A DNA stretch of 64,000 nt from Halosegnis longus (GCF_009663395.1 NZ_QKNW01000001.1:682001-746000), one strand, 5' to 3'; counted from the first letter of the stretch, positions 9,738-33,425 are shown. Numbers and translations are program-made. Notes: generated by a model not told the origin, from the sequence alone.

Positions 9738-9740
9738 ACG

Positions 9741-11456
9741 ATGCCACCGGTGCTCGACCCGGTCAGACTCCCGTATCTCCTCGTCTTCGGTGGGGTAACC
9801 CTGGCGTGTTTCGGCCTCGCTGCCGTGTTGGCCCGCCAGCGGACAGCCGCCGGTGAGCGGGAGTTGGCGGCGCTGTTCGTCGCTATCGGCTGCTGGAACG
9901 CCTGTTCGGTCGGGCTGCTTCTCGTTCCGGGGCGGTTTGCTGTCCGCCCGCTGTTTGCCGGCTCGCTGTTGTTCGCCATCCTCGTGTCGGTCGTCTGGTT
10001 CCGGTTCGCGCAGGTGTACTGCGACCGGGACCCGCTGCCGATACCGGGCCGGAGATATCTGATTGTCGGCGTCGTGCTCGCGGCGCTCGCGCTCCCGATA
10101 ACGAATCCCCTTCACGGGTGGGTCTGGACCGACATCACCGTCCAGTACCGCTACAACATCCCCGTCTACCTCGCCCAGCGCGGCCCGGCACACCACCTCC
10201 TCACGGGCGCGTCGTATCTGTTCACGTTCGCCGGGGTCCGGTGTCTCGCGATTCGGTTCTGGAACGCGCGCATCACCCGGCCCGCAATCCTGTCGGTGCT
10301 CGTCGGCTTCGGCATCTCCATCTCCGCGAATCTGCTCCCCGTCACGGCCGACCTGCTCATCGAGTATCCACCCGCAGTCACCGCCGGCGGCGGTGCCTTC
10401 GGCGCGTTCGGTATCCTCGTGGCGGTCCGGTCTGACCTCTCGGGGACAGTGTCCATCGCCCGCCGGTCCGTCTTCGACACGCTGGCCGACCCAGCGGTCG
10501 TAGTCGACACCGGCGGCCACGTGCTGGCGGCCAACGAGGCGTTCGCCCGGACGTTCGGCGACCCGACCATCGGCGAGCCGTTCACGACCACCAACCCGGC
10601 GCTCGCCCGCCAGCTCGACGCGGACGCCACCGACCGACAGACAGTGCAGGTGGACGGAGAAGACGACGCCGTCCACTACTCGGTCATCGCCTCGCCGGTC
10701 GGGGTCGACGGGACCCGGGGGCGCTCGCTCGTCTTCCGTGACATCTCCGACCTCCGGTCGGCGACCCGCCGGCTGGAGCGACAGAACGAACACCTCGACG
10801 AGCTCGCCTACTCGGCGGCTCACAACCTCCGGAACCCGCTGGGCGTCATCGACGGCTACGCCGGGATGATTCAGTCGGAGCTCGAAGACATCGACGACCC
10901 GTCGTTCGACCGCGACCGGGTCCGGGAGTACGTCGACAAGGTCGCCGCCAACAGCCAGCGGATGGAGGAAATCGTCACCGACCTGCTGCGCGTCACCCAC
11001 GCTAGCAAGGCCGACGGCGAGCGGGAGTGGGTGTCGCTGGGGGCGCTGGCCGAGGCCGCGATGGACGCCGTCAACGACGCCGGCAACCTGCGGCTCACGG
11101 TCGAGTCGGACGGCGAGATACGGTCGAACCCCGAGCAGTTCGAGATGCTGCTCTCGACGCTGGTGCGGGCGAGTCGCGACCGTTCCGGTGAGGAACCGGT
11201 GTCGGTGCGGCTGTCGGCCAGCGAGGACGGCTTCGTCTTCGAGGACGACGCCGAGCCGATTGACGAACAGGACGCCGAGGTGTTTCTCTCGTACGGCTAC
11301 ACGACGAAATACCCCGGCACGGGACTCGGGTTGGCCGTCGCGCGGATGCTCGCAACGAGCCACGAGTGGGACATCGAGATTGACGGCAGCTACGACGGGC
11401 TTCGGGTCGTCGTCTCGGGGGCGGCCGTCCGGCCGGCGGCCGACACCGGAAACTAA
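9741..11456 (+). CDS. Membrane sensor histidine kinase (7TM-type N-terminus, PAS, HisKA, HATPase)
   Basis: 571 residues from the ATG at 9741, chosen by the TATA spacing (in-frame GTG at 9723 and ATG at 9729 are alternatives). Residues ~1-215 hold about seven hydrophobic segments, resembling the N-terminal 7TM region of haloarchaeal kinases. A PAS domain (~225-335, RRSVFDTLADPAVVVDTGG) leads into HisKA with the H-box AAHNLRNPLGVIDGY. The ATPase domain keeps GTGLGLAVARML but its N-box lacks the Asn and the first glycine box reads DDAEPIDE rather than DNGxGI. Kinase activity is therefore uncertain. No response regulator is adjacent. Confidence 0.85.
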   Translation: MPPVLDPVRLPYLLVFGGVTLACFGLAAVLARQRTAAGERELAALFVAIGCWNACSVGLLLVPGRFAVRPLFAGSLLFAILVSVVWFRFAQVYCDRDPLPIPGRRYLIVGVVLAALALPITNPLHGWVWTDITVQYRYNIPVYLAQRGPAHHLLTGASYLFTFAGVRCLAIRFWNARITRPAILSVLVGFGISISANLLPVTADLLIEYPPAVTAGGGAFGAFGILVAVRSDLSGTVSIARRSVFDTLADPAVVVDTGGHVLAANEAFARTFGDPTIGEPFTTTNPALARQLDADATDRQTVQVDGEDDAVHYSVIASPVGVDGTRGRSLVFRDISDLRSATRRLERQNEHLDELAYSAAHNLRNPLGVIDGYAGMIQSELEDIDDPSFDRDRVREYVDKVAANSQRMEEIVTDLLRVTHASKADGEREWVSLGALAEAAMDAVNDAGNLRLTVESDGEIRSNPEQFEMLLSTLVRASRDRSGEEPVSVRLSASEDGFVFEDDAEPIDEQDAEVFLSYGYTTKYPGTGLGLAVARMLATSHEWDIEIDGSYDGLRVVVSGAAVRPAADTGN

Positions 11457-17680: not shown

Positions 17681-17703
17681 CCAGCGGAGATTCCGGCCCT
17701 GTG

Positions 17704-17718
17704 GTGTATAAATCCCCC
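17704..17718 (-). promoter_or_regulatory. TATA-like promoter of the RAD55-like gene
   Basis: On the minus strand the sequence gives GATTTATAC centred about 28 bases before the ATG at 17680, the usual spacing for a leaderless haloarchaeal transcript. The remaining intergenic stretch to the pilus operon (to 17928) carries three TCTCGCG heptamers (17781, 17805, 17851) of unknown meaning. Confidence 0.5.
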
Positions 17719-17928
17719 ACCGGGCGACCGCGCCGGCGACGCCAGCACCGTGCGAGCGACTATCACGCTGGAATCGGGTGTCTCGCGCGCGAAATCAGAT
17801 TCTTTCTCGCGAAATGTACAGAAACAACCGCCCACAGCTTTTTCGTCGATTCTCGCGTATGCGCGTACAATGGAGAGTCATCGAACCGCAGTGAGTCTCG
17901 GCGGTGCGGTTCGGACAGTGAGGGTCCG

Positions 17929-20700
17929 ATGAGCGACGCCGAGTGGGTGTCGGAGCCGGAGCCGGCAGTCCGACGGGTCGAAACCCAGAAGTACGAGCCT
18001 GCCGTCCGGCGAATCGAGCCCGACGACGCAGACGAGCCGACCGACGACAGCGACGGAGCGCCGGCGACACAGGAGTACGAGCCGGCAATCGTCCGGGTCG
18101 AGGACCTGTACGAGCCGGCGATCATCCGGATGGAGCCGGCGACGCGACCCGTGGACTTCTGGCGAGACGACCTCCGGCTCGGGCCGCTCGACGCCATCCC
18201 GTCGAACAGCGACCGCTACGAGGAGGCGGTCGAGGTTCGCGACGACCGCTACGACAACATCGAACAGCAGCTCTCGGCGGGCCAGTCGCGCGCGGAGGAG
18301 CTGGACGCCGTCGTCGAGGAGCGAACGCTGAACGTTCCCGAGGCGCTCGACGAGGACAGCTTCTTCACCACGGCGCGGGGCCACGAGAGCGTCGCCACCC
18401 ACTACGACCTAGAGAAGGCGGTCCCGATGGACAAGAAGCCGAATCTGAAGGAGGTGGAGCGCTACTGGGTGAACGAGCCGTACTCGTTCATCGTCATCTA
18501 CCGGTCGACGACGGCGAACGAGCTGAAGTACTACGCCGTCGAGCCGTATCTCAACGCCGTCGAGGAGGGGATGCACGAGTTCCTCATCGAGAAGCTCTCC
18601 TCGTCGCTGAAATACGCCGGCGAGGGGGCCGTCGCGACCGACGGGACCGAGGTCGAACGCGCCGAGGTCATCGAAGACGAGACGATGAAACACGTCGACC
18701 GCTACGGCGTGCTCGCCGAGCGTGACGAGACGAGCGCGACCGACCAGGTCAAATCGACCTTGGAGCGATTCGACATCCGGACGTCGGGCGACGCGGGGAC
18801 CGAGTCGGAGGAAATCGACCCGTACGGCGTAAAGCAGGCGCGAGCCGAGCGGGAGCACGAGGAGTCGAACGGCGACGGGCTCGGCGGTTCGCTGTCGGGA
18901 GTCACCGACATCGGCGAGCTGCCGACGCGGCTGAAGTCGTCGGTTTCAGGCCTGTTCGGCGGCGACGAGGAAGACGAGTCGGGACCGCGACACGTCCGCG
19001 ACGAGAGCATTTACACGCCAGCCGCGGAGCTTCCGGAGCTGAAGGGGCGGTCGGTCCGTCCGGAGCCGGCGGTCATCGAGGAGGACGCGGACACGCTCAC
19101 CACCTACCAGCTCCGGAAGCTGCTCTACTACCTGAAACGCGACTTCATCGGCTACCAGATAATCGACCCGGTGAAACACGACATCAACGTGGAGGACATC
19201 TCCGTGGACGGCTACAACATGCCCGTCTTCGTCTACCACACGGAGTACGAGCAGATTATCTCCAACATGACCCACGGCGAGGAGAGCCTCGACGAGTTCG
19301 TCGTCAAGCTCGCCCAGCGGTCGGGCAAAGGCATCTCGAAGCGCCAGCCGCAGGTGGACTGTACCCTGCCGGACGGGTCGCGTGCACAGCTCACGCTCGG
19401 GAAGGAGGTCTCCGACCACGGGACCAACTACACGATTCGACAGTTCAAGGACGTGCCGTTCACCCCAGTGGACCTCATCAACTGGAACACCTTCGGACTC
19501 GACCAGATGGCGTTCCTGTGGCTCGCCATCGAGAACAACAAGTCGCTCATCTTCGCGGGCGGCACGGCCTCGGGGAAGACCACCTCGCTGAACGCCGTCT
19601 CGCTGTTCATCCCCTCGAAGGCGAAAATCGTCTCCATCGAGGACACCCGCGAGGTGGAGCTGCCACAGCGCAACTGGGTCGCCTCCGTCACGCGGCCGTC
19701 CTTCTCGGACGACGACAAGGGCGACGTGGACGAGTTCGACCTGCTCGAGGCCGCGCTCCGACAGCGGCCCGAGTACATCGTCATGGGCGAGATTCGTGGC
19801 GAGGAGGGCCGGACGCTGTTCCAGGTCATGTCGACGGGTCACACGACGTACACGACGTTCCACGCCGACTCGGTCGGCGAGGTGATGAAGCGGTTCACCA
19901 CCGACCCGATTAACGTCTCGAAGACGATGTTCACGGCGCTCGATCTGGTGTCGATTCAGGCACAGACCCGCGTCGAGGGGCGGAAGGTGCGGCGCAACCA
20001 GGCCATCTCGGCGATTAACGACTACGACGCCGAGAACAACGAGATCAACGTCGAGGACGTGTTCGTCTGGAGCGCCGAACGGGACGCGTTCGACCCGACG
20101 CCGAACCCGTCGATTCTCGAACGCATCAAGTTCGACCGCGGGTGGACACAGGAGACGCTCGACCGCGAGCTGTTCATCCGGAAGGTCATGCTCGCGTATC
20201 TCATCCGCAACGGGCTGAACAGATACAGCGAGGTGGCCGGGGCGATTCAGGCGTTCATCAACGACCCGGACACGATTCTCGCGTTGATGGCCAACGGCCG
20301 GCTGTTCGAGACGCTCGACAATCTGCGCGACATGGAGTCGGTCGAAATCGACGTGGACCCCGACAAGGAGGCGCTCGTCCCGCGGCCGAACCCGGACGAG
20401 GCGATGGTCGACGAGACGCGCGGGGTGATGCAGAAGGCCGAGGAGTCGCTGTTCCCCGACTACCGCGAGTCGCTGCCCGAGGACGTGACCGAGGTGCTCG
20501 TCGACGTACTGCCGGACAGCCTGACCGACGCGGACAGCGGAACCGTCGGGCTCGACTTCGAGCCGTCGGCCCGCGGCACCGACGAGCCGTACGAGGAAAG
20601 CGACGTGACCGTCGAGCCGGTCGAGACGGAGGGTGAGCCGGCCAGCGAGACGCTCGCGGAGTTGGAACGAGACGCAGACGAAGCCGAGGGTGACGACTGA
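17929..20700 (+). CDS. pilB3: Type IV pilus assembly ATPase (PilB3/GspE-like)
   Basis: 923 residues from the ATG at 17929. It powers pilin polymerisation at the cytoplasmic membrane. Walker A is GGTASGKT (544-551), followed by the SIEDTREVELP Asp-box and the GEIRGEEGRTLFQVMSTGH Walker B/His-box of archaeal type II/IV secretion ATPases. The N-terminal ~70 residues hold four copies of an (Y)EPAxxRxE repeat, and the C-terminus has an acidic tail with partial repeats. The next gene, the membrane platform PilC, starts on the last base of this stop codon, so the two are translationally coupled. The symbol follows the haloarchaeal PilB3-type organisation. Confidence 0.92.
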   Translation: MSDAEWVSEPEPAVRRVETQKYEPAVRRIEPDDADEPTDDSDGAPATQEYEPAIVRVEDLYEPAIIRMEPATRPVDFWRDDLRLGPLDAIPSNSDRYEEAVEVRDDRYDNIEQQLSAGQSRAEELDAVVEERTLNVPEALDEDSFFTTARGHESVATHYDLEKAVPMDKKPNLKEVERYWVNEPYSFIVIYRSTTANELKYYAVEPYLNAVEEGMHEFLIEKLSSSLKYAGEGAVATDGTEVERAEVIEDETMKHVDRYGVLAERDETSATDQVKSTLERFDIRTSGDAGTESEEIDPYGVKQARAEREHEESNGDGLGGSLSGVTDIGELPTRLKSSVSGLFGGDEEDESGPRHVRDESIYTPAAELPELKGRSVRPEPAVIEEDADTLTTYQLRKLLYYLKRDFIGYQIIDPVKHDINVEDISVDGYNMPVFVYHTEYEQIISNMTHGEESLDEFVVKLAQRSGKGISKRQPQVDCTLPDGSRAQLTLGKEVSDHGTNYTIRQFKDVPFTPVDLINWNTFGLDQMAFLWLAIENNKSLIFAGGTASGKTTSLNAVSLFIPSKAKIVSIEDTREVELPQRNWVASVTRPSFSDDDKGDVDEFDLLEAALRQRPEYIVMGEIRGEEGRTLFQVMSTGHTTYTTFHADSVGEVMKRFTTDPINVSKTMFTALDLVSIQAQTRVEGRKVRRNQAISAINDYDAENNEINVEDVFVWSAERDAFDPTPNPSILERIKFDRGWTQETLDRELFIRKVMLAYLIRNGLNRYSEVAGAIQAFINDPDTILALMANGRLFETLDNLRDMESVEIDVDPDKEALVPRPNPDEAMVDETRGVMQKAEESLFPDYRESLPEDVTEVLVDVLPDSLTDADSGTVGLDFEPSARGTDEPYEESDVTVEPVETEGEPASETLAELERDADEAEGDD
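17959..18135 (+). repeat. Four-copy (Y)EPAxxRxE repeat in the PilB N-terminus
   Basis: The motif occurs at residues 11-18 (EPAVRRVE), 22-30 (YEPAVRRIE), 50-58 (YEPAIVRVE) and 61-69 (YEPAIIRME). The nucleotide copies have diverged, while the pattern of hydrophobic, Arg and Glu residues is kept, so it is a protein-level repeat. It lies outside the ATPase core. A role as a docking strip for a partner is only inference. Confidence 0.75.
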
Positions 20701-22730
20701 TGGCCGCGCCGACCGCTGGCGCGACACGCCCGCCACGCGAGCGGATGGGCGACCGGATGTTCCCGCTGTACCGCCGGCTGTTCGGCGAGGACTCCGACTT
20801 CGTCGCGACCGTCGACGACAAGCTCGGTGAGTGTCTCCGCGACGACCCGGTGGAGATGTTCCTCGCGGTCGCGCTCGGCTACGGTGTCATCCTCGGACTC
20901 TCCCTGTGGGCGCTCGGCGTCGCACTGGCGTACGGTGTCCTGCTCGTGTTCAACCCCGACCTCGGGGAGGTCGTCAACGTCTCCGTCGCGAATCCGACGC
21001 TCGCGGCCACGCTCGAAGCGCTACAGGTTCCGTCGTTCCTCCTCCTTTCGGGCCTCCTGCTCGGAACGATCGGCTTCGTCGTCGGCTTCGGCGCGCCGGT
21101 CGGCAACCTCTGGATACAGTCTGGCGAGCGGAAACGCGAGATTAACGTCCTGATGCCCGACGCCATCTCCTTCATGTACGCCCTCTCAATCGGCGGCCTG
21201 AACCAGATGGAGATTCTGGAGGCCGTCGCCGAGGCGGACGACGTGTACGGAGAAGTGTCTCGCGAGTTTCAGGTCATCCTGAACGAGACGGGCTACTTCG
21301 ATACGGCCTACCGGACCACCATCCGGAACCGCTCGACGCAGACCCCGTCCGACGAGTTCGCGCAGTTCCTGACGGACATGCTCTCGATTCTCGCCTCCGG
21401 CGGTGACATGACCGACTTCCTCGACCAGAAGAAGGACAAACACATGCGGACGGCAAAACAGCAACAGGAGGCCACCCTCGAAACGCTCCAGCTGTTCGGG
21501 GAGATGTACCTGACGCTGTCGCTGTTTCCGCTCCTGCTCATCATCACGATGGTTGCCGTCTCGCTGATGAGCGGCCCGAAGACGCTGCTGTTGACGGGGA
21601 CCGTGTACGCGCTGATTCCCCTGCTTTCGGTGGCGTTCATCGTCATGATTTCGACGGTGAAACAGGACGACCCCGGCGACGGCTACCTCCGCCCGAAGAA
21701 CGTCGATTTCCAGGAGCCGGACTCGATTCTCTCCATCGGTCCCATCGAGAGCTATGACACCGACCGGTCGCTGTTCAGCACGATTCGGTCACAGGAGGGC
21801 CGGATGCGGCTGAAGGCCATCGCGCGGCGGCCGCACGTCCTCTTCCGCGAGCGACCGGAGTTCACGCTGTTTTTCACCCTCCCGGTCGCGGTTGCCGCCG
21901 TCGCGTTCGGCGTCACCTCGGGGCTGATTCCGACGAGCCGCCCGGAGTTCGTGGAGTCGTATCTCTCCGCGACGATCGTGCTCGTCTACGTTCCCGTGTA
22001 CGTGATGGGGGTTCCGTACGCCATCTTCTACCAGCTCCGCCAGTCGAAGCGGTCGGGCATCACGGGGAAACTGACCGACTCGCTACGGAAGCTGGCGTCG
22101 GCAAACGACACCGGCCAGACGCTGCTTGAGTCGTTCGGCACCGTCGCGGACACCTCCTCCGGGCGGCTGGCCCAGGAGTTCGAGATTATCCGCGGGAAGG
22201 TGACCTACGGCACCTCGGTGAAGCAGGCGCTCGTGGAGATGAACAACAAGTTCCACCTCCCGCGGCTGGCTCGCTCGGTGAAGCTCGTGAGCGAGGCACA
22301 GGAGGCCTCCTCGGAGATTACGGACGTGCTCTCGACGGCCGCACAGGCCTCCGAGAATCAAGACGACCTCGAGCGCGAACAGAAACAGGGCGCACAGATG
22401 CAGATGGTCATCATCATCATGGCGTTCATGACGATGCTGGGCGTCATCGCCATCCTGAAGCTCAGATTCCTCGGGCCGATGGCCGACCTCGCGTCGGCGG
22501 GCGCGAGCAGCGGCGGCGGAGGCGGCCCGGCCGGCGCGGGCGCTGGAAGCGGCTTCGGCAGCAGCGTCAACGTCCAGCGGCTGGAGATGTTCTTCTTCCA
22601 CGCCGTGACGATACAGGCCGTCGCGGCGGGCTTTATCGCCGGCTACATGCGGTCGGGGAAGCTGCTCAACGGCGTGAAGCTGTCCGTCGTTCTCATCACG
22701 TTCCCACTGCTGGTGTTTCTGGCGACATGA
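20700..22730 (+). CDS. pilC3: Type IV pilus membrane platform protein (PilC3/TadC-like)
   Basis: 676 residues with two T2SSF repeats, each followed by membrane helices: roughly residues 60-300 and 390-670. The first repeat contains MYALSIGGLNQMEILEAVAE, the second QTLLESFGTVADTSSGRLAQ. A Gly/Ala/Ser-rich loop (ASSGGGGGPAGAGAGSG) separates the last helices. It forms the inner-membrane platform that the PilB ATPase drives. ATG at 20700 overlaps the pilB stop by one base. The next gene overlaps it by 4 bases. Confidence 0.92.
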   Translation: MAAPTAGATRPPRERMGDRMFPLYRRLFGEDSDFVATVDDKLGECLRDDPVEMFLAVALGYGVILGLSLWALGVALAYGVLLVFNPDLGEVVNVSVANPTLAATLEALQVPSFLLLSGLLLGTIGFVVGFGAPVGNLWIQSGERKREINVLMPDAISFMYALSIGGLNQMEILEAVAEADDVYGEVSREFQVILNETGYFDTAYRTTIRNRSTQTPSDEFAQFLTDMLSILASGGDMTDFLDQKKDKHMRTAKQQQEATLETLQLFGEMYLTLSLFPLLLIITMVAVSLMSGPKTLLLTGTVYALIPLLSVAFIVMISTVKQDDPGDGYLRPKNVDFQEPDSILSIGPIESYDTDRSLFSTIRSQEGRMRLKAIARRPHVLFRERPEFTLFFTLPVAVAAVAFGVTSGLIPTSRPEFVESYLSATIVLVYVPVYVMGVPYAIFYQLRQSKRSGITGKLTDSLRKLASANDTGQTLLESFGTVADTSSGRLAQEFEIIRGKVTYGTSVKQALVEMNNKFHLPRLARSVKLVSEAQEASSEITDVLSTAAQASENQDDLEREQKQGAQMQMVIIIMAFMTMLGVIAILKLRFLGPMADLASAGASSGGGGGPAGAGAGSGFGSSVNVQRLEMFFFHAVTIQAVAAGFIAGYMRSGKLLNGVKLSVVLITFPLLVFLAT

Positions 22731-23236
22731 GCCGGCGCGGACAGACGAACATCGACTTCGCCATCGGCATGAGCCTCTTTCTCGTGACGGTGTCGTTCGT
22801 CTTCCTGTTCGTGCCGACGGTGTTTTCGCCGTTCGAGGTGGCACAGGGTCAGCCGCTCGTGGCCGACCGCGCGGCGACGCGACTGGTCGATACGATGCTC
22901 GCCGGGCCGGACCCGGGGACGCTCGCGCCAGCCTGCACGCTCGGCTTCTTCGCCGACGTGGACACCCCCGGCTGTGTCTACGACAGCTCTCGGTCGCTCG
23001 GCGACGCACTCGGTATCGGCAACGAGAACGTCCGCGTCGCGGTGCGCGAGGGCGGCGAGGTGGTCACGCTCGACGGGACCGTCGCGACGAGCGACGGCTC
23101 GCGTGCACCGTCGGACCCGCCGACGACACTGGAGCGTGGTCAACCGGCGGGTGAGGTGCCGGAACGGGCGACGACGGTGGCACGGCTCGTCACCCTCGAC
23201 GGCCAGCAGGTCCGCGTGGAGGTGTCGGTGTGGTGA
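22727..23236 (+). CDS. Pilus-locus membrane protein, pilin-like N-terminus (DUF7287-like)
   Basis: 169 residues. A short basic N-terminus (MSRRGQTNIDFAIGMS) leads straight into a single hydrophobic helix (~12-32), the layout of a type IV pilin or pseudopilin before processing, although the peptidase site is not the classical one. The rest is an extracellular domain with two cysteines (CTLGFF, GCVYD) that could pair. It resembles a haloarchaeal family that follows pilC (DUF7287, from memory). Likely a minor pilus or assembly subunit. Confidence 0.8.
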   Translation: MSRRGQTNIDFAIGMSLFLVTVSFVFLFVPTVFSPFEVAQGQPLVADRAATRLVDTMLAGPDPGTLAPACTLGFFADVDTPGCVYDSSRSLGDALGIGNENVRVAVREGGEVVTLDGTVATSDGSRAPSDPPTTLERGQPAGEVPERATTVARLVTLDGQQVRVEVSVW

Positions 23237-23868
23237 GCCGCGGTCAGACGTGGACGCTCGAAGGCGTCGCCGCCTCGGTGCTCGTGTTGGGTGCCGTCGT
23301 CTTCATCCTCCAGTCGTCGGTCATCACGCCGCTGTCGGCCTCGACGACGAACCAGTATCTCGAGGAGCGCCAACAGGAGCTCGCGACGGACGTGTTGTCC
23401 GGGGCCGCGAGCGAGGGTGAACTCCGCGAGGCGCTCCGCTACTGGAACGACGGGGACCGCGTGTTCCACGGTGCAGACGAGACGGGGTACGCGAGCGGCG
23501 CGGCGCTCGCGGCCCGCGACATACGACTGGGCGACACCCTGACGGACGCGTTCGACGGACGCGGTATCACGTACAACGTCTACATCCGGTCGCCGATACC
23601 GGAGGAGCCGCCGGCGTCGATGCCGGCGGGTACGGGTCGGTACGGGAGCGAGAGCCAGTCGCTGGTGTACCAGGGCGTTCCGTCGGATTCGGCCGTCTCC
23701 GCGAGCACCCACGTCACGCTGTACGACGGCGACGTGCTGCTCGATTCCGACGGCGACGAGACGACGACGCGGCTCGATAACGCCGACTTCTACGCCGACG
23801 AGGCCGCGGACGGCGACGACACGATATACACGGTCGTGGAGGTGCAGATCGTCGCATGGCAGTCGTGA
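23233..23868 (+). CDS. Pilus-locus membrane protein, pilin-like N-terminus (DUF7288-like)
   Basis: 211 residues from the GTG at 23233, which lies 8 bases after a GGAGGTG Shine-Dalgarno (23218-23224) and overlaps the preceding stop. The N-terminus SRGQTWTLEGVAASVLVLGAV is a short charged stretch plus one membrane helix. The remainder is a soluble outer domain rich in Asp, Tyr and Gly. It appears to belong to the family that always follows the DUF7287-like gene in haloarchaeal pil loci. Probably a pseudopilin. Confidence 0.8.
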   Translation: MSRGQTWTLEGVAASVLVLGAVVFILQSSVITPLSASTTNQYLEERQQELATDVLSGAASEGELREALRYWNDGDRVFHGADETGYASGAALAARDIRLGDTLTDAFDGRGITYNVYIRSPIPEEPPASMPAGTGRYGSESQSLVYQGVPSDSAVSASTHVTLYDGDVLLDSDGDETTTRLDNADFYADEAADGDDTIYTVVEVQIVAWQS

Positions 23869-26483
23869 GCGAGCGCGGCCAACAGCTGCTCATCGGCGGG
23901 CTAGTCTTGGCTATCGCGCTCACCGCGCTCGTCGTCGTGCTCAACGGCGCGCTGTACACCGACGACCTGCGGACGCGCGACGCGGCGGGCCAGACCCTCG
24001 CCGCCGACGACTACGAGGGTGAGCTGTCGCGAGAACTCGGGCGGACGCTCGACCGCATCAACGACGGGCGCGAAGGCGACCGAACCGTCGTCGAGCAGGC
24101 AGTGCTCGACGCCACGTTCGCGACGAACGACCTGCTCGGCCGCCAGTACGCGAGCGGACAGGCTGCCTACGCCAGCGTCGACCCCGCCCGTATCGAACGG
24201 GGAATCATCATCGAACAGGACGCCTCGTGTGCGTTCACCGCGTTGAACACCAACTGTGGCGGGTCGAGCGAACGGCCGGTCACGCCCCGGTTCACCTACG
24301 GCGACGATGACGACGACAGTTGGGTCCAAGCAGGTGATAGCGGTGAGAATCTCATCCTCGACGCCTCGGAGACGGAAGATTACGACGAGACGAGCGGCGA
24401 CCTCTCGTACGACTGGACCCTGACGGAGGGGACCGACACCATCACGAAAAGTGGCGAAACTCCGAGCGGCTTCACCCTCCCAGAGTCCGGCTTCTGGAAG
24501 GTGACCCTCACCGTCACCGACACCGATACCGGTGCAACGGAAACCGTGACCGCGTGGGTCGCCGCACACGCGACCGACGACGCGAACGAGGTGCCCCCCC
24601 GGGCGCGATTCACCCACTCGCCGACGGTGCCGGTCGCGACCGAGCAGGTCGTCCTCGACGCGACGGCGACGACAGACGGGAACGGTGACATCACAAGTTA
24701 CGACTGGTGGATTAAGGCACCCGACGGGACGGTCTTGCCCTCGCCGCCCGATGGGGAGACGACGACATTCACGCCCGCGGACGCCGGCGACTACGTCGTC
24801 GCGCTCGACGTGAGCGACGCGACCGGCAACACCGACACTCTCCGGAAGACCGTCACCGTCGACGAGACGCTCGCGAACGGCGGCGGCCGCACCGGTGACA
24901 CCGACGGCGACGGCACGAACGAGCCACCGTTCCGCGTCGCGCCGGTGTCGGGCGACCGCTACTTCGCGCTCGGCGAGGCGGGTGCGACCCCCGACTCGCC
25001 CGACTGGACGCTCGCGGAGAGCGCCACCGTCCGGCAGTTCGAACTCGAGACCGACGACATTGACGCGCTCTACGACGTGTCCGACTCCAATAGCGACAGT
25101 GCGGCCGTCTTGGCCGACACCTTCCACGTCGAACTCACCGGACAGGACGGAGACACGTGGGCGGTCCACGTCTTCGAGAGTTCGACGAGCGGCCAGTTCA
25201 CCGTCGCGACGATCGCGCCCGACGGCACGGTCGATATCCGCCACCGCTCGAACGACCCCATCGCGGTCGACGTGACCACCGGCGAGGTGAACGGGCGACA
25301 GGTGTTCCCGTTCGCGCCGGAGCTCGCACAGCCGGCCGACATCGCCTTCCGCAACGGCGACCAGATTGCCGGCAGCTACGAACTCACGCTCGCGACGGGG
25401 ACGAGTGCGAGCACGGACGTGCAGACGGCGAACTTCTATCCGCCCGAGGGTGACCGCCAGCCGTACGCCGGCCCGGCAGTGTATGCGGTCAACGTGCCGG
25501 CGACGTACGACACGGCCGAGCTATCCCGTCGTGGCAGCGTCAGGGTCGCCCCCGACGAGCCGACGGTGTACGGTCGCGGCATCTCGCTCGGCGTACCCGA
25601 ACCGTCCTACACCGACCGCGATGCGGTCGTCTACGTCGCACCAGATGGCGGTGCGAACACGCTCCGGTCGATTACTCCGGACGGCACAGTCACGACCTAC
25701 GACGCGACCGACGTACAGGCAATCGGTCCGAAACAGGTCGATATCGACGCCGACGATGTGGCCGAGATTCCGTACGTCGCGGGTGACGGCTCGCTCCGTA
25801 TCGTGGATGCAAACGGCGAAAAGCAGACGCTGGTGTCTGCAAGTGCCCCAGAAGCACCCGACACGACACAGGCGCTCATCGGTATCGACCGCTGGAACGG
25901 GCAGTTCTCGGTTCTGTACGCGACCGCAAACGGGAACGCCTACCGCGTCGACGCGGCGGGCAACACCGCACAGATCGGGCTTGACCCGGGTGGAAACGGC
26001 GTCGGCGCAATCGGCGGTGTCACCGACATGGACGACGACGGGACGCCGGACATCCTCTTTGCGGACACGAGCCAACAGCTTCGATTCTACGAGGAGGGCG
26101 CGAGCGACAACGTCCTCGTCTCCAACGGCGGCGTCGGGCAAAACGCCGGAATCGGGATGGGAGCAGCCCGCGACTTCGACCGCGACGGCGTCGAGCGTGC
26201 ACCGATAGTCGACGGCTCCGGCAGCCTCCGACTTATCAGCGAGACGACCGGACGGAGCGGGCAACTCACATCGGTCTCCCAGAAGGCACCCGCGGCCGGC
26301 TTCCAGTGGGACGAGGCAACGACCAACCGCGAAATCATGTTCGTCGCACAGGACACCAACGACGCCGGGAACACCATCTACGTGCTGGCGTACGTCCCGC
26401 CAGACGGGAGCGAGCCGGCGACGATCGTGACCGACTCGAACGGTGACCCGATTCAAGTCGTACAGGGGACGGGGGTGGCCTGA
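23856..26483 (+). CDS. Pilin-like membrane protein fused to PKD and FG-GAP-like modules
   Basis: 875 residues. The ATG at 23856 lies 11 bases after a GGAGGTG at 23838-23844, which favours it over the GTG at 23865. Residues 1-35 (SERGQQLLIGGLVLAIAL) form a charged stub and one membrane helix as in the neighbouring pilus genes. After ~145 residues come two PKD-like domains (~145-245, with LSYDWTLTEG, and ~250-340, with ITSYDWWIK). The C-terminal half ends in beta-propeller-like repeats, including the FG-GAP/calcium-loop TDMDDDGTPDILFAD (~723-737). It is far longer than the other small subunits and looks like a surface adhesin carried by the pilus machinery. Confidence 0.82.
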   Translation: MAVVSERGQQLLIGGLVLAIALTALVVVLNGALYTDDLRTRDAAGQTLAADDYEGELSRELGRTLDRINDGREGDRTVVEQAVLDATFATNDLLGRQYASGQAAYASVDPARIERGIIIEQDASCAFTALNTNCGGSSERPVTPRFTYGDDDDDSWVQAGDSGENLILDASETEDYDETSGDLSYDWTLTEGTDTITKSGETPSGFTLPESGFWKVTLTVTDTDTGATETVTAWVAAHATDDANEVPPRARFTHSPTVPVATEQVVLDATATTDGNGDITSYDWWIKAPDGTVLPSPPDGETTTFTPADAGDYVVALDVSDATGNTDTLRKTVTVDETLANGGGRTGDTDGDGTNEPPFRVAPVSGDRYFALGEAGATPDSPDWTLAESATVRQFELETDDIDALYDVSDSNSDSAAVLADTFHVELTGQDGDTWAVHVFESSTSGQFTVATIAPDGTVDIRHRSNDPIAVDVTTGEVNGRQVFPFAPELAQPADIAFRNGDQIAGSYELTLATGTSASTDVQTANFYPPEGDRQPYAGPAVYAVNVPATYDTAELSRRGSVRVAPDEPTVYGRGISLGVPEPSYTDRDAVVYVAPDGGANTLRSITPDGTVTTYDATDVQAIGPKQVDIDADDVAEIPYVAGDGSLRIVDANGEKQTLVSASAPEAPDTTQALIGIDRWNGQFSVLYATANGNAYRVDAAGNTAQIGLDPGGNGVGAIGGVTDMDDDGTPDILFADTSQQLRFYEEGASDNVLVSNGGVGQNAGIGMGAARDFDRDGVERAPIVDGSGSLRLISETTGRSGQLTSVSQKAPAAGFQWDEATTNREIMFVAQDTNDAGNTIYVLAYVPPDGSEPATIVTDSNGDPIQVVQGTGVA

Positions 26484-26484
26484 C

Positions 26485-26913
26485 GTGCGCGAACGCGCCC
26501 AGTCGTCGACAATCGGCTACGTGCTCGCCATCGGCGTGGCGACGCTGCTCATCACCGGTCTCATCACCGGCGTCGGCACCTTCGTCGAGGGACGACAGGA
26601 GCAGGCCGTTCGCGACCAGCTCACCGTGGTCGGCGAGCGGGTGGCCTCACAGCTCACCGCGGCCGACGCGCTGGCGACGCGTGAGGGGACGGTGTACGTC
26701 GAGCCGGCGGTGCCCGAGCGGGCCGTCGGGATGAACTACCGGATTAGACTGGACGCGAGCAACGAACAGCTGATACTGTCGACGGCCGACCCGGCAGTCA
26801 CGGTTCGGGTGCCGGTCTCGACGACCCGGCCGCTGGTCGACTCGGCGACGCAGGGAACGGACGTCGCGGTCCGGTACGACGAGAACGGGCTGTCCGTGGG
26901 TGAAAAGCGATGA
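26485..26913 (+). CDS. Pilus-locus membrane protein, pilin-like N-terminus (DUF7266-like)
   Basis: 142 residues from a GTG at 26485, one base after the preceding stop. The N-terminus MRERAQSSTIGYVLAIGVAT has a short charged region and a single helix (~10-32), then an extracellular beta domain (VSTTRPLVDSATQGTDVAVRYD). It matches the layout of haloarchaeal minor pilins (DUF7266, from memory). The next gene starts within its stop codon (ATGA). Confidence 0.78.
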   Translation: MRERAQSSTIGYVLAIGVATLLITGLITGVGTFVEGRQEQAVRDQLTVVGERVASQLTAADALATREGTVYVEPAVPERAVGMNYRIRLDASNEQLILSTADPAVTVRVPVSTTRPLVDSATQGTDVAVRYDENGLSVGEKR

Positions 26914-27665
26914 CGGGCGACGAGCGCGGCGTCTCGGAGGTGCTCAGCTACATCCTCGTGTTCTCCGTCGTGGCGGTGACCATCGCGTTCGTCCTCGGCG
27001 ACGGGCTGGGTGCCGTCACGACGACCCAACAGAACGCCCGCATCGACGCCGCACAGAGCGGCGTCGCCATCCTTGACAAGAGCATCGAGACGGTGTATCA
27101 GACGGGGGTCCCCCGTCGTTCGACGGAGTTGAAGCCGAACGGGGGGACGCTCTCGGTGGGTGGTCGGCTCGACGTGGATATCGTCGTCTCGCAGGGCGGG
27201 TCCGACCTGTTCGATTACGGGTCGGCCAGCAGCCGCTTTACCCACACCATCGACGACCAGTCGGTCGGGCTGGCGCTCGGTGCGCGGTTCCGCAGCGGAA
27301 CGGGCGGCGTCGCGATGACGGCCGAGCCACCCTTCCACTTCGGCGACGAGCGGACGAATCTCCCGGTCGTGTTGTTGACCGGAGCCGACAGCGTCTCCAC
27401 CGGCTCGCCGGTCCAGATTGTCGCCGACACGGAAAACGAGGAGCTGCTCGACCACCGGACCGCCGGCCCGAGCGCGGGGACACCCTACACCGTCGAAGTG
27501 ACCGTCGAGACGACGCCAGAGCGGGCGGCTGCGTGGAACCGGTACTTCCAGCGCGAGGGACTCACCGCAGTCGATGACGACCCGAGCGACGGCACAGTCG
27601 TCTACAGTCACGAGACCCGACGGCTCATCATCGAGGAGTTCACGACCGGGCTCGAACTGCGTTAA
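26910..27665 (+). CDS. Pilus-locus membrane protein (DUF7289-like)
   Basis: 251 residues. MTGDERGVSEVLSYILVFSV shows the R-G-V-S-(E/P)-V start of many archaeal pilins, with one helix (~12-32). The outer domain (residues ~60-250) has EVTVETTPERAAAWNRYF, close to the YYRAWGRYFERRV segment of the convergent gene, so the two share a fold. It is the last plus-strand gene of the pil operon and its stop codon overlaps that of the next gene (TTAA). Confidence 0.8.
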   Translation: MTGDERGVSEVLSYILVFSVVAVTIAFVLGDGLGAVTTTQQNARIDAAQSGVAILDKSIETVYQTGVPRRSTELKPNGGTLSVGGRLDVDIVVSQGGSDLFDYGSASSRFTHTIDDQSVGLALGARFRSGTGGVAMTAEPPFHFGDERTNLPVVLLTGADSVSTGSPVQIVADTENEELLDHRTAGPSAGTPYTVEVTVETTPERAAAWNRYFQREGLTAVDDDPSDGTVVYSHETRRLIIEEFTTGLELR

Positions 27666-29281
27666 GACTCCTCGACGACGACCGTGTTGCGCGAGACGTG
27701 GAGATACGAGAATATCGTCACGTCGCCGTCGTACGCCGGTATCCCCTTGGCGGCGAGGTCGTAGTGGATGGTCGACCCGGACTTGAGGTCCGGCTTGCCG
27801 ACGGCCATCGCACCGAATATCTCGCTCTGTGACCGCATATCCAGCGAGGAGTCATCGCCCGGCGCGTAGAAGATGCCGACGAACCGCGACTCGGAGGACA
27901 TCGTCGCGGTCAAGTCGTCGGTCCCGTAGAGCCAGAAGCGCGGCGAGGCGTCGTCCGGGACGGAGACGTCGCCGCTGTTCATCGTCACGCTGCCGCCGGT
28001 CGTGTAGAGTCTGGCGGCGTTGTCGTTGCTGCCGGCGACGGCGATTTCACCGCCGTTGGAAACGTCGATGTTCCCGGTGACCGCGAGGGTGACTTCCTCG
28101 TCTGCGGACGGTTCGAGCGTTAGCGTCCGGCCGTTCAACTGGAGTTCCCCGTCGATGTAGTAGGTGCCGGCAGAGAGCGTCACGTCGCCGTCACCGGCGA
28201 GCGAGTCGTCCACGAGCGCGGCGACGTCGCCGTTGTCGTTGTCGTCGCGTGCACTCGAGACGCGCTGGGTGACGCGTCCACCGGAGCGTTGCACCTCGAC
28301 CGACTGTTTGATAATTTCGCCGTTGCGAATCTCGGAGTTGCCCTTGACGTTGACGTAGTTCCCCTCGGGAACGATGACATCACCGTAGACGGTGACGCCG
28401 CCGCCGATGTTGACGTTGCTCGTCGCGACGATGCGGCCGTCGTCGAGTTTGCTCTCGGAGTAAGCGCCCTCGGTGGAGTCGTAGCTGTCGAGGAACGTGC
28501 GAGAGCCGCCGCCACCCTTCAGATTGAAGCCGGAGGTGCCGGTGGCGGCCGCGCCGTAGGAGATGGTGTTGTCGTACTCGGTCTTCAGCGTGACACTCGC
28601 CGTCTCGGTCGAATCGTCGACGGTCACGTCACCGCCGACTCGGCGCTCGAAGTAGCGGCCCCACGCCCGGTAGTAGTCGCTCTGGACCCGGACGGTGAGC
28701 TGCCGGTCTTCGACGGGGTTGACACCGTTTTCCGGGGAGGGGTACGTCGCCTCACTTCCACCCGATGCAAGTCGGACGCTGTCGCCCGAGAACCGCGCCG
28801 GGAGATTGTCGGCGGTCACGCTCACGACGGGGATGGTGAGCGTGTCGTCGTTGAAGTCGAATTCGGGGGGCGAAACCATCCGCGCGTAGTCGTCGCCCTG
28901 TCGCCAGACGCCGCCGCCCTGATACGCGAGGGTGTCACCGTCGGTGGCGTACTCGACCGCGCCGAGGGGTTCATCCACCAGCGTCTGTGTGGTCCCGTCG
29001 TCCGCGGTCGCGACGACGGAAATCGACCCGCCGTCGGTGACGGTGATGCTGTCGGCGTTACCGATACCGACGGTCGTCGTCCTGCCGGTCTCGCCGAAGG
29101 CGACGAGGGCGGCCGCCGAATCGAACTGTGCGGCCGCGATGCCGGCACGCTCCTCGTTGGCCTGTGTGCGCGACTCGTCGAGCGTGTACACGGCGGCACC
29201 GACGGTCGCCGTCGCGGCGGCCACGGTGATGGCGATGACGAACACCGCCCCGAGCGTCGATGATTGGCCCCGCTCGTTCAT
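27662..29281 (-). CDS. Large pilin-like surface protein with a parallel-beta-type repeat region
   Basis: 539 residues. The N-terminus MNERGQSSTLGAVFVIAITV is the same short-charged-plus-helix layout as in the pil operon. Residues ~210-260 repeat the R-AWGRYFERR-GGDVTVDD motif of the preceding gene. Residues ~285-500 contain short repeating strands (NINIGG, VTVYGDVIVPEGNY, LTLEPSADEEVTLAVTGNIDV) suggesting a beta-helix or bactofilin-like surface. It lies tail-to-tail with the pil operon, so it has its own promoter, but it is probably exported with the same machinery. Confidence 0.8.
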   Translation of the reverse strand: MNERGQSSTLGAVFVIAITVAAATATVGAAVYTLDESRTQANEERAGIAAAQFDSAAALVAFGETGRTTTVGIGNADSITVTDGGSISVVATADDGTTQTLVDEPLGAVEYATDGDTLAYQGGGVWRQGDDYARMVSPPEFDFNDDTLTIPVVSVTADNLPARFSGDSVRLASGGSEATYPSPENGVNPVEDRQLTVRVQSDYYRAWGRYFERRVGGDVTVDDSTETASVTLKTEYDNTISYGAAATGTSGFNLKGGGGSRTFLDSYDSTEGAYSESKLDDGRIVATSNVNIGGGVTVYGDVIVPEGNYVNVKGNSEIRNGEIIKQSVEVQRSGGRVTQRVSSARDDNDNGDVAALVDDSLAGDGDVTLSAGTYYIDGELQLNGRTLTLEPSADEEVTLAVTGNIDVSNGGEIAVAGSNDNAARLYTTGGSVTMNSGDVSVPDDASPRFWLYGTDDLTATMSSESRFVGIFYAPGDDSSLDMRSQSEIFGAMAVGKPDLKSGSTIHYDLAAKGIPAYDGDVTIFSYLHVSRNTVVVEES

Positions 29282-29345: not shown

Positions 29346-29879
29346 GTGACAGCGCGTCTCGACATCGAACACGACCTACCGCCCGACCTCGCCGACGCGC
29401 TCGGCGACGACCGCCGCAGCGTCGGAACGCTGTACAACGAGCTACAGGACCTCTCTGGGGAGGCGTTTCGCGACCGGTTCGACGACGCCTTCGGTCGGCT
29501 CACAGAGGCGGTGCCGGCCGACGCCGAGTTCGTCGTCGTCGTGCTCGGGTTGGAAGTCGACACCGAGACCGACCCGTTCGTGACCGACGCCGGCGTCGTC
29601 GCCGTCCACGAGCCGAACCCGGACGGCAGCGTCGGGACGCTCCACTTCGTCGCCGACGACGCCCCGACAGACACGTTCGTGATGCTCCCGATTCGCCCGG
29701 CGGACTGTCCGCCCGGCTCCGGACGGCCGGTGTCACAGCTCACCGTCGAGGAGTTTCGCGACATCGTGAGCGCGATGGTGTACAAGCGATTCGACCTGCT
29801 CGATTCCGACATCGACGCCTACCGCGACTCGTACCTCCGGCCGCTGGTTCGGGGCGTCGAGGCGTACGCGTCGGCTTAG
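29346..29879 (+). CDS. Hypothetical acidic protein
   Basis: 177 residues from a GTG at 29346. It is soluble and acidic with no signal peptide. A small alpha/beta layout is suggested by the helix LYNELQDLSGEAFRDRF and the strand AEFVVVVLGLEVD. I do not recognise a family. It is divergent from the pilin-like gene (64 bases between starts) and its stop overlaps the LOV-kinase stop by the shared tetranucleotide TTAG. Haloarchaeal codon use supports a real gene. Confidence 0.75.
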   Translation: MTARLDIEHDLPPDLADALGDDRRSVGTLYNELQDLSGEAFRDRFDDAFGRLTEAVPADAEFVVVVLGLEVDTETDPFVTDAGVVAVHEPNPDGSVGTLHFVADDAPTDTFVMLPIRPADCPPGSGRPVSQLTVEEFRDIVSAMVYKRFDLLDSDIDAYRDSYLRPLVRGVEAYASA

Positions 29880-31639
29880 CCCGCCGGCAGCGACAGCGTC
29901 ACCGTCGTCCCGTTCTCGGCGTCGACGCGGAACTGTCCGCCGACGCCCTCGACGGCCCACCTGACCAGCCACAGCGCGATACCCTGTGTGTGTTCCAGGG
30001 GCGTCTCGGAGCCGGTCATCAGCGCGTTGCGTTCGATCTGTGGCATCGTCTCGCCGTCGTCGTGGACCCGGAGTTCGACCACGTCCGCCCGGTCGATGAC
30101 GGAGACGGTGATGTTCGACGCCTCGCCGCTGCGGTCGATGGCGTCGTCGAACAGCTTGTCCAGACAGAACTCGATTTGGTCCGGACAGACGGCCATCGCC
30201 GACTCCGGCGTCACCGTCTCGACGTTGGCGTCGGGGTAGGTGATTTCGAGCCGCGGGACGGTCTGTTCGACCAGCGCCGCGAGGTCCCGCTGTTGGCCGG
30301 TCTGTCCGTCGATACTGGTCTCGTCGCCGAACTCGCGGACCGCCTCGGCGATATCGAGTAAGCTGTCGGCGGCCGCGGAGATGCGCTCGCCCGCGGACTG
30401 TATCGTCTCCGGGTCGCTGTCGGGTGCGTCCGTCAGCGTCGCGGCGTGGCCCGCCACCACGTTCAGCTTGTTGCGGAGGTTGTGGCGCAACACCCGGTCG
30501 AGCACGGAGAGTCGCTCCTGCTGGCGGCGGATGTCGGTGATGTCGCGCGCGACGACGATGACCCGCCGGCTCCCCTCCAGCGTCTCCGGCTGGAAGCGGA
30601 ACTGGTAGGTGTGGCGGTCGCCCGGCAGCGTGAGCTCCTGTTCGTGGGTCTCGTCGCGTGCGAGCGCGAGCATCAGCGTGTCCATCAGCTCGCCGGCCTG
30701 CTCCTCGTCGAACAGCGTCGTTATCGCCGTGTCAGTCGTGCCGGCACCGAACACCTGTGCGGCGGCGTCGTTGGCGTACTCGATTGTTCCCGCGGGGTCG
30801 AGCACCAGAATCGGGTCGCTCACCGACTGGACGATTCGCTGGTGGCGCTGGAGGATTCGCTCTCTGGACTTTCGCTCGGTGATATCCCGCTGGAAACCGA
30901 TGAAGTGCGAGACGGTCCCGTCCTCGGTGACGGGGACGATTTCGAGCTCGTTCCAGAACGGCTCGCCGGACTTCCGGTAGTTCAGAATCTCGACGCTGAC
31001 CTGCTCGCGGGACTGAAGTGCCTCCCGCAGTTCCGTGCGCGTCTGCTCGTCGGTGTCGGGCCCCTGCAGGAACCGGCAGTTGCGACCGAGCACCTCCTCG
31101 CGGTCGTAGCCCGTGATGTCGAGGAAGCCGTCGTTGGTGTAGACGACCGGGTAGTCGCCGTCCGCCTCGGTGATGATGATACCGATTTCGGCACCGTCCA
31201 TCGCCCGCCCGTACAGTTCGAGTTGGTTGCGGCGGTCGGTCGCGAGCTTCGACTCCTCGCGCGTCTCCAACAGCGCCGAAACGCGGGTCTCGATTGCGCG
31301 TTTCGGCGCTGGAATCGACTGGATGGCGTCGACGGCGGTCCCGACTGCGTCGCCGTACTCCTCCCACAGCGCCGTCTCGTCGCCGGTCGCGACCAGCAGT
31401 GCGGGAGCCGCGGTCGGCTGGCTGTCGGCCTTCCACTCCGTGAGCGCGTCGCGGAGCCGAGCGAACGCCCCCTCGTCGACGATACACAGGTCGGTCTCCT
31501 CGGGGACCGACGCCTCGAACTCGATCACGTCGTACTGGGCGAGAAGCTGAGCGAGGAGCTCGCGGTTCCGGCCGCTGTCGAAGCCGAGGGCAACCCGCAC
31601 CGCGCCGTCGTCCGTGTCGGACCGGCGGTGCGCGTCCAT
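29876..31639 (-). CDS. LOV-domain (blue-light) sensor histidine kinase
   Basis: 587 residues. After a receiver-like N-terminus without clear phospho-Asp geometry (~10-110), residues ~145-255 are a LOV-type PAS: GRNCRFLQGPDTD with the adduct cysteine at Cys188, and the FMN contacts NYRK (Asn220), FWN (Asn230) and FIGFQ (Gln250). A second PAS (~275-375), a HisKA domain (H-box RVLRHNLRNKLNVVAGHA) and an HATPase domain follow. The ATPase boxes are weak: N-box DKLFDDAIDRS lacks Asn, G1 is HDDGETMP and G2 is HTQGIALWLV. The protein should sense blue light; kinase strength is uncertain. The KaiC gene starts upstream on the same strand with 3 bases between them. Confidence 0.9.
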   Translation of the reverse strand: MDAHRRSDTDDGAVRVALGFDSGRNRELLAQLLAQYDVIEFEASVPEETDLCIVDEGAFARLRDALTEWKADSQPTAAPALLVATGDETALWEEYGDAVGTAVDAIQSIPAPKRAIETRVSALLETREESKLATDRRNQLELYGRAMDGAEIGIIITEADGDYPVVYTNDGFLDITGYDREEVLGRNCRFLQGPDTDEQTRTELREALQSREQVSVEILNYRKSGEPFWNELEIVPVTEDGTVSHFIGFQRDITERKSRERILQRHQRIVQSVSDPILVLDPAGTIEYANDAAAQVFGAGTTDTAITTLFDEEQAGELMDTLMLALARDETHEQELTLPGDRHTYQFRFQPETLEGSRRVIVVARDITDIRRQQERLSVLDRVLRHNLRNKLNVVAGHAATLTDAPDSDPETIQSAGERISAAADSLLDIAEAVREFGDETSIDGQTGQQRDLAALVEQTVPRLEITYPDANVETVTPESAMAVCPDQIEFCLDKLFDDAIDRSGEASNITVSVIDRADVVELRVHDDGETMPQIERNALMTGSETPLEHTQGIALWLVRWAVEGVGGQFRVDAENGTTVTLSLPAG

Positions 31640-31642
31640 CGG

Positions 31643-33082
31643 CTATTCGATTCGTTCCGGGACGCCGGTGAGGATGCCGCGTCGGTCGGTGAGTGCACCA
31701 CCGAGCGTGACGCCATCGGTGTCGATACGCAGCTCGCGCAGCGACTGCTCGAAGTCGCTGAACCGCTTTTTCAGGACGCCGACCACCTTCCGTATCTCGC
31801 CGTCCATCTCCACGTACCGGAGGAAGATGATGTTGTCAGCGAGGTAGCTCACCCGCTCGTCGGTGGCGTCGAGCGACCCCGCCAGGCTCCCAACCTCGTC
31901 GATGAGGATGGTGGTGACGCCCATGCGCTTGAGATACCGACACAGGGCGTGAAGCTCGCGGGTCAGCTCCTGTTCGGTGTCGCTCCCCCGAAGCCCGAGC
32001 CGGTAGCCCGGAATGCCGTCTATCATCACGACCTCGACGCCGCCCTCGACCGCCTCGCGAACGTCGGCCGCGAACTCGTCGGGGCTCTGGGTGAGCGACT
32101 CCACCTCGAACAGCCGGAGCGGGCCGTCCGCGTGCAGTTGGCCGACGCCGAGTCCGAGCTGGTCGGCGCGGTAGAGATAATCGTCGCGAAGCTCCTCGAA
32201 CAGGAAGCCGGCCGAGGGGGTCCCGCCGGCTGCCGACGACCGGAGAAACAGCGAGCCGAGGGTCGTCTTGCCGACGCCCGACGGGCCGGAGATGACCGTC
32301 ACGGAGCCACGCTCGATTCCGCCACCGAGCAGAGCGTCGAGTTCGGAAACGCCCGACGAGAGCTGTTCGCGGTCGGTCTCGCGGCGGTGCTCGCCGGGGA
32401 CGAGCTTCGGGTAGATGCGACCGCCGGTGTCGCCGCGAATCCGGTAGGTGTGTTTGCCGTTTGCGAAATCCGAGCCACGGAACTTCGTCACCTCGAGCGA
32501 GCGGTGGTTCGTCGTCCGGTCGATTTCGAGGGTGGCGTCGCCGAGGAACTGGAGGTCCCAGTCGCTGCCGGCTGCGACGGCCTGTGTCGTACAGACCGTC
32601 GTGATGTCGCGTGCCTTGAGTTCGTTCACCAGCGAGGAGATATTTCGCCGGAACCGGTAGTCGTCGGGGACGAGCGACCGAAGTTCAGACAACGGGTCGA
32701 TGGCGAGTCGGTCCGGCTCGATATCGTCGATTTCGTCGGCGATAGAGTCGAGCAGCGCCTCGCCTTCGACCTCCTCGTGTGGGAAGATGGTGTACTCGTC
32801 GTCGCTCTCGAAGAAACGGCTGCCGTCGGCACTCAGATCGAGTATTTCGACGTTCGAGAGGTCGATATCCAGTCGGGCGGCGTTCTCCCGGATATCCTCC
32901 TCGCGCTCTTCGAAGCCAATGTAGAGCCCGCGGTCCGCGGCGGCGAGAAACTGCAGGGCGAGCACCGTCTTTCCGGTACCCGGCCCACCGCTTACGATGG
33001 CCGTCTGCCCGCGGATGAACCCCCCATCGAGCACATCGTCAAGCCCGTCCGTCCCGCTCGTGACTCGGGGTGTGCTTGTCAT
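31643..33082 (-). CDS. Double-domain KaiC-like ATPase
   Basis: 479 residues made of two RecA-fold KaiC domains. CI has Walker A GGPGTGKT (32-39) and the catalytic Glu pair FEER (58-59); CII has GPSGVGKT (266-273) and FEELRDD (296-297). Near the C-terminus the CII phosphosite strip aligns with cyanobacterial KaiC: Thr407 and Ser412 match Thr426 and Ser431, while Thr432 is Tyr413. There are no kaiA or kaiB genes nearby. Archaeal KaiC proteins are thought to act as signal-transduction hubs partnered by kinases. Here a LOV kinase follows by 3 bases, so a light-responsive pair is likely. Confidence 0.9.
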   Translation of the reverse strand: MTSTPRVTSGTDGLDDVLDGGFIRGQTAIVSGGPGTGKTVLALQFLAAADRGLYIGFEEREEDIRENAARLDIDLSNVEILDLSADGSRFFESDDEYTIFPHEEVEGEALLDSIADEIDDIEPDRLAIDPLSELRSLVPDDYRFRRNISSLVNELKARDITTVCTTQAVAAGSDWDLQFLGDATLEIDRTTNHRSLEVTKFRGSDFANGKHTYRIRGDTGGRIYPKLVPGEHRRETDREQLSSGVSELDALLGGGIERGSVTVISGPSGVGKTTLGSLFLRSSAAGGTPSAGFLFEELRDDYLYRADQLGLGVGQLHADGPLRLFEVESLTQSPDEFAADVREAVEGGVEVVMIDGIPGYRLGLRGSDTEQELTRELHALCRYLKRMGVTTILIDEVGSLAGSLDATDERVSYLADNIIFLRYVEMDGEIRKVVGVLKKRFSDFEQSLRELRIDTDGVTLGGALTDRRGILTGVPERIE

Positions 33083-33340: not shown

Positions 33341-33425
33341 GCCGAGATAGCCTAGCCTGGCCAAGGCGGTAGATTCGAAATCTACTGTCCTCACGGACAC
33401 GTGAGTTCAAATCTCACTCTCGGCG
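33341..33425 (+). tRNA. tRNA-Ser (anticodon CGA)
   Basis: The 85-base class II tRNA folds with acceptor stem GCCGAGA/TCTCGGC and discriminator G. The anticodon stem GTAGA/TCTAC holds the loop TTCGAAA with CGA at 33376-33378. A long variable arm (TGTCCTCACGGACA) is followed by the T-arm GTGAG-TTCAAAT-CTCAC. It reads UCG serine codons. CCA is not encoded. The 3' half is duplicated 142 bases downstream. Confidence 0.96.

Follow-up and report, generated by a model that had tools for sequence, protein, structure and literature searches.

The window analysed here is a 64,000-nucleotide stretch of the Halosegnis longus genome (GCF_009663395.1, NZ_QKNW01000001.1:682001-746000), in which the gene of a two-domain KaiC is followed, on the minus strand, by the gene of a kinase-like protein with a LOV photoreceptor domain. 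The reading preferred here, given a probability of roughly one half, is that the LOV protein docks on KaiC through a degenerate N-terminal receiver (pseudo-receiver) and signals to it by contact rather than by phosphotransfer. The KaiC gene lies upstream and ends at 31643, while the ATG of its partner is located at 31639. The 3-base gap suggests a tightly spaced two-gene operon. An initial annotation of the window, made from the sequence alone, had given the coordinates, strand and gap exactly and had described the pair as a LOV histidine kinase coupled to KaiC. That a LOV protein is tied to KaiC holds; the term “histidine kinase” is unsupported as it stands, as the N-box asparagine and the G1/G2 glycines have been lost. 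Two features of the kinase-like protein go beyond that annotation: the degenerate receiver at its N-terminus and the degeneration of its ATP-binding domain.

Conservation of the pairing in Halobacteria

Adjacency confined to this strain, which the initial annotation had named as counting against its reading, was rejected, since the arrangement recurs across many genera and families. KaiC was sought in 146 family genomes, with inspection of about 110 neighbourhoods. Of the 104 KaiC genes obtained, 92 are followed on the same strand by a protein carrying the pseudo-receiver, and a further five have such a protein in divergent orientation. In Halobacteria, two-domain KaiCs nearly always adjoin a kinase that begins with a degenerate receiver. 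This adjacency exceeds chance, because the 40 HATPase_c genes in the 2.77 Mb genome predict a same-strand kinase immediately after any given gene in only about 1% of cases or less, by our estimate.

The pseudo-receiver profile alone finds matches in 225 of 341 Halobacteria genomes and in 57 of 81 genera. Among 40 loci outside the family that were fetched with this profile, 37 adjoin KaiC (two of them partial) and a 38th has a KaiC fragment; these 40 are the top-scoring matches, and the fraction with KaiC is possibly lower among weak ones. The KaiC of the window belongs to a clade of 32 members (Shimodaira–Hasegawa-like approximate likelihood ratio test, SH-aLRT, 100), of which 31 have a LOV kinase as neighbour. 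LOV partners are found in other KaiC clades too, with eight to nine LOV changes in all on the tree, and relatives on plasmids include Haloarcula. The LOV pseudo-receiver kinase is transcribed divergently from the adjoining KaiC at loci L107, L108, L121, L122, L123 and L208.

The N-terminal pseudo-receiver

The first 130 or so residues of the kinase-like protein have no match in Pfam. An alignment of 39 kinase N-termini of this type (profile A2) matches the solved receiver structures PleD, CpxR and PhoP, the best at 2.6e-7. None of the 39 retains the conserved receiver lysine or the first acidic residue; the phospho-accepting aspartate is kept in 35, and the Ser/Thr position is not conserved. 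A pseudo-receiver has been defined as a receiver in which any of five residues is absent (PMC12632262). Judged by its sequence, the N-terminal domain is a pseudo-receiver under this definition, because the lysine and the first acidic residue are missing. An AlphaFold model of the domain from a two-sequence input had a mean predicted local distance difference test (pLDDT) score of 45 and was not used for a fold search. Across 53 LOV pairs, distances correlate with those of KaiC at rho values of 0.74 for the pseudo-receiver, 0.64 for the kinase core and 0.33 for LOV; the pairwise values are non-independent and the figures are descriptive only.

The LOV sensor

The motif GRNCRFLQG (residues 185-193) with Cys188, together with Asn220, Asn230 and Gln250, was found as the initial annotation had described. 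The protein thus carries the GXNCRFLQ signature with the adduct cysteine, and two asparagines and a glutamine at flavin-contact positions. Among solved structures, the LOV part is best matched by 2mwg, a blue-light photoreceptor of the B. subtilis type (E 1.9e-18). The domain would be expected to bind flavin mononucleotide (FMN) and to form an adduct at Cys188 in blue light. Exact NCRFLQG-coding motifs number only four in this genome, compared with 40 HATPases.

About 48 of the 54 same-strand LOV partners retain the adduct cysteine, the others having Pro, Tyr, Ser or Arg in its place; a few further same-strand LOV partners have unusual residues around the cysteine. Within the genus of the window, the motif takes the forms GRNCRFL, GRNPRYL, GRSCRFL and GRGCQFL.

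Degeneration of the kinase core

The H-box histidine, His386, is present. The N-box asparagine is replaced by Asp499, and one glycine each has been lost from G1 (pattern DxGxG) and G2. Where typical partners read ENAIEH, DDGPGIP and GLGLW, the window protein reads DDAIDR, DDGETMP and GIALW. Its HATPase score of 46 bits is within the lowest six of the 40 in the genome. Phosphotransfer by this protein is doubtful, since the N-box asparagine and the G1/G2 glycines are absent, and from these residues it is probably unable to use ATP. The ATP-binding domain is not a relic, because its ratio of nonsynonymous to synonymous substitution rates (dN/dS) of 0.31-0.35 shows that it is constrained like the remaining protein.

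The second glycine of G1 is variable even among partners with an intact N-box asparagine, which weakens the G1/G2 boxes as a measure, and losses were therefore counted by the N-box only. The asparagine has been lost in 13 of 54 same-strand and three of six divergent LOV partners (16 of 60 adjacent LOV partners in total). No loss was found in 77 non-LOV partners, a difference from the 13 of 54 with a Fisher probability of 4e-6 when kinship is ignored. On the KaiC tree, at least four changes are required. With four events all on LOV branches, and about half of the rows being LOV, the tie between N-box loss and LOV is suggestive, not conclusive.

On Haloarcula plasmids (L232 7241-8740 and L237 7293-8756), a third operon gene follows the degenerate LOV protein and encodes a histidine kinase with intact boxes, which could restore phosphotransfer.

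The KaiC protein

KaiC aligns over its full length with solved KaiC structures (E 1e-51). Both P-loops and both catalytic glutamate pairs reported in the initial annotation are in place (K38, K272, E58/E59 and E296/E297). The two Walker lysines, the aspartates, E297 and the serine equivalent to cyanobacterial S431 are invariant across 149 KaiCs. Of the two phosphosites of the cyanobacterial clock protein, S431/T432, only the serine is kept; directly after Ser412 the T432 equivalent is Tyr, as it is in 121 of the 149. The protein ends approximately where the cyanobacterial C-terminal tail begins. KaiB was found in none of the 142 family genomes searched. A cyanobacteria-like oscillator is unsupported, because KaiB is absent and the T432 equivalent is Tyr. 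For the same reasons, the possible day/night responses suggested in the initial annotation are unsupported, as is a circadian role; signalling from LOV to KaiC could be a simple light response.

Features and surroundings of the locus

The positions of the features are collected in Table 1. No third operon gene was seen in the window, as the likely neighbours on either side of the pair are on the opposite strand. A tRNA-Ser gene lies upstream of the pair at 33341-33425.

Table 1. Features of the KaiC-LOV pair (window positions) and related cyanobacterial loci
Feature	Position	Strand	Remarks
Two-domain KaiC, CirC-type haloarchaeal KaiC, 479 aa	31643..33082	-	Pfam KaiC 1.2e-61, two stretches; KaiC structures matched full-length
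KaiC domain 1 P-loop GGPGTGKT, residues 32-39	32966..32989	-	K38 invariant in 149 KaiCs
KaiC domain 1 Glu pair E58/E59	32906..32911	-	E58 in 97/149, E59 in 144/149
KaiC domain 2 P-loop GPSGVGKT, residues 266-273	32264..32287	-	K272 invariant in 149
KaiC domain 2 Glu pair E296/E297	32192..32197	-	E297 invariant, E296 is E/D (149 KaiCs)
KaiC Ser412, equivalent of cyanobacterial phosphosite S431	31847..31849	-	KaiC alignment; Ser invariant in 149
LOV kinase-like protein, 587 aa	29876..31639	-	Order: pseudo-receiver, LOV, PAS, DHp, degenerate ATP-binding domain
N-terminal degenerate receiver (pseudo-receiver), residues 1-135	31235..31639	-	Profile A2 against receiver structures
LOV domain, residues 136-262	30854..31234	-	Blue-light photoreceptor match; NCBIfam YtvA family 2.4e-47, under the model's whole-protein cut-off
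LOV motif GRNCRFLQG with adduct Cys188	31061..31087	-	
Second PAS domain, residues 263-374	30518..30853	-	Pfam PAS_8 from residue 264
DHp (HisKA) helices, conserved His386 (RHNLRNKL)	30320..30517	-	
ATP-binding (HATPase_c) domain, degenerate	29879..30202	-	N-box Asn replaced by Asp499; G1 DDGET; G2 TQGIAL
Cyanobacterial archaeal-type KaiC/pseudo-receiver-kinase loci	L179 6995-10522; L224-L231		

A type IV pilus-like cluster adjoins the pair (17701-29281) and comprises a T2SSE ATPase, T2SSF, DUF7287, DUF7266, DUF7289, a PKD protein and DUF7305; no evidence links it to the pair. The window also contains another histidine kinase (9723-11456, plus strand) with an N-terminal seven-transmembrane region (HisKA_7TM).

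Proposed mechanism and alternatives

The pseudo-receiver most likely docks the partner on KaiC. Following adduct formation in the LOV domain, strain would pass along the second PAS domain and the DHp helices and alter the shape of the dimer. Since the ATP-binding domain has lost its key residues in this lineage, the partner most likely phosphorylates nothing. Light would alter the contact with KaiC and, through it, the ATPase cycle or assembly of KaiC, so that the signal would run from light to KaiC as the catalytic effector.

Several observations weigh against this reading. Seven of the 104 KaiCs have no adjacent pseudo-receiver protein, genome G120 holds a KaiC remnant only, and related LOV kinases in G017, G019 and G022 have no adjacent KaiC. 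Even inside the genus, the device has not stayed intact. In the sister species G086 (L069), the adduct cysteine is replaced by Pro (GRNPRYL) with the other checked flavin-contact residues kept, making it a natural adduct-less variant. In the sister species G084, only the last 100 or so residues of KaiC remain (L169:5330-5785); the deletion apparently runs from the upstream spacer to about codon 380, and the LOV kinase keeps an open frame and 90% identity. No more than about four independent events underlie the link between N-box loss and LOV. Because the N-box asparagine persists in most LOV partners elsewhere (44 of the 60 adjacent ones), the ancestral mode may have been phosphotransfer. His386 is conserved in all partners and would be unneeded in a pure scaffold.

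These last two points, together with the full histidine kinase that stands third beside the degenerate LOV protein on the Haloarcula plasmids, would fit an ordinary light-regulated histidine kinase. The LOV domain would then control the autophosphorylation of His386 as well as phosphotransfer to a response regulator encoded elsewhere, with KaiC modulating the kinase as for SasA and the odd N-box being functional. This is unlikely for the window protein, in which N499D is the same substitution as in EnvZ-N347D, termed kinase-minus/phosphatase-plus in the title of Dutta and Inouye 1996 (cited in PMC5727384). G1 and G2 are altered in addition, and no response regulator gene is present beside the pair in the window.

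The phosphatase-plus half of that title, along with the retention of both His386 and the asparagine at H+4, would fit a different activity: a kinase-dead, DHp-active protein that acts as a light-regulated phosphatase on a response regulator or on KaiC. No cognate regulator was found for it, and this explanation is rather improbable. Of similarly low standing is the proposal that the pair is losing its function in the genus and that the adjacency is historical. The replaced cysteine of G086, the altered LOV motifs of G085 and G087, the KaiC deletion of G084 and the eroded kinase boxes are what decay would produce. However, dN/dS (0.19 in KaiC, 0.2-0.35 over most of the kinase) does not approach neutrality in any domain, and both reading frames are open in the window. 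Lastly, a circadian input in which LOV sets the phase of an archaeal KaiC oscillator is very improbable: transcription of H. volcanii cirC, beside “fixL”, is rhythmic in a light/dark-dependent manner and disturbed in cir knockouts (PMC3941300), but the missing KaiB, the Tyr at the T432 position and the early end of KaiC all stand against it.

Occurrence beyond Archaea

An archaeal-type two-domain KaiC is encoded in nine of 244 cyanobacterial genomes, and in all nine a pseudo-receiver kinase is adjacent or one gene off. At L179, in Lyngbya, the archaeal-type KaiC is followed by a receiver and then by a kinase that starts with the same pseudo-receiver. Archaeal contamination as the source of the Lyngbya KaiC was rejected, given its cyanobacterial-looking neighbours and a second, clock-type KaiC in the genome. 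Two KaiCs on alphaproteobacterial plasmids are followed by PAS kinases with a receiver-like N-terminus recognised by eye only; both partners were checked for a LOV domain and have none.

It can be tentatively proposed, at less than even odds, that a KaiC input module is common to Archaea and Bacteria, in which a swappable sensor is held on KaiC by the pseudo-receiver instead of by KaiB or a thioredoxin-like domain. One haloarchaeal clade would have taken LOV and given up the kinase several times, leading to a direct blue-light switch on the KaiC ATPase.

Relation to known systems

It is already known that KaiC can lie beside a sensor-kinase gene (PMC3941300), that archaeal LOV kinases exist (PMC12202551), and that archaeal KaiC has been proposed as a “signal transduction hub” by Makarova, Galperin and Koonin in 2017 (as cited in PMC5847659). 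In H. volcanii, the two-domain KaiC gene cirC, with light-dependent expression, is adjacent to a “fixL” gene annotated as an oxygen sensor (PMC3941300). The window pair resembles this arrangement, in that a two-domain haloarchaeal KaiC stands beside a gene of the PAS sensor-kinase type, CirC having been compared by description only. The window partner, unlike that annotated oxygen sensor, combines a canonical LOV domain with an ATP-binding domain that has degenerated. The 2017 proposal, as it is cited, likewise partners archaeal KaiC with sensor or kinase proteins; relative to it, the present analysis offers a specific docking candidate in the pseudo-receiver, a LOV-specialised KaiC clade and the decay of the kinase.

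In cyanobacterial CikA, a GAF domain and an active kinase are followed by a pseudo-receiver at the C-terminus, which binds KaiB-KaiC (PMC6378743). As a kinase-like protein with a pseudo-receiver and a Kai-linked input, the window protein may work in a similar manner, by analogy only. In contrast to CikA, its pseudo-receiver is N-terminal, its sensor is LOV, and KaiB is lacking; given the different domain order and KaiB dependence, the protein is not classed as a CikA. The layout REC-PAS-HisKA-HATPase is shared with archaeal REC-HisK kinases, some of whose N-terminal REC domains are likewise described as lacking conserved residues (PMC5847659). The window-type REC differs in being unseen by Pfam and in the loss of the lysine and acidic residue from every aligned member. 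Archaeal LOV photoreceptors from Lake Diamante include LOV domains in haloarchaeal histidine kinases and Cys-to-Pro variants, with KaiC unmentioned (PMC12202551); both traits recur here. In the literature collection searched, no paper was found that links KaiC with a LOV domain or a LOV histidine kinase, which is not proof of absence.

Biological meaning

In the literature examined, no photoreceptor has been assigned to the light-dependent expression of haloarchaeal KaiC genes. The spread of the pairing through many haloarchaea makes it a good candidate, open to experimental test, for light input to archaeal KaiC, and the KaiC clade with a near-constant LOV partner defines a named two-protein system. 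Natural variation supplies built-in controls: the Cys-to-Pro exchange, the KaiC deletion, and kinase-intact and kinase-dead forms. The pseudo-receiver provides a specific candidate binding surface across archaea and cyanobacteria.

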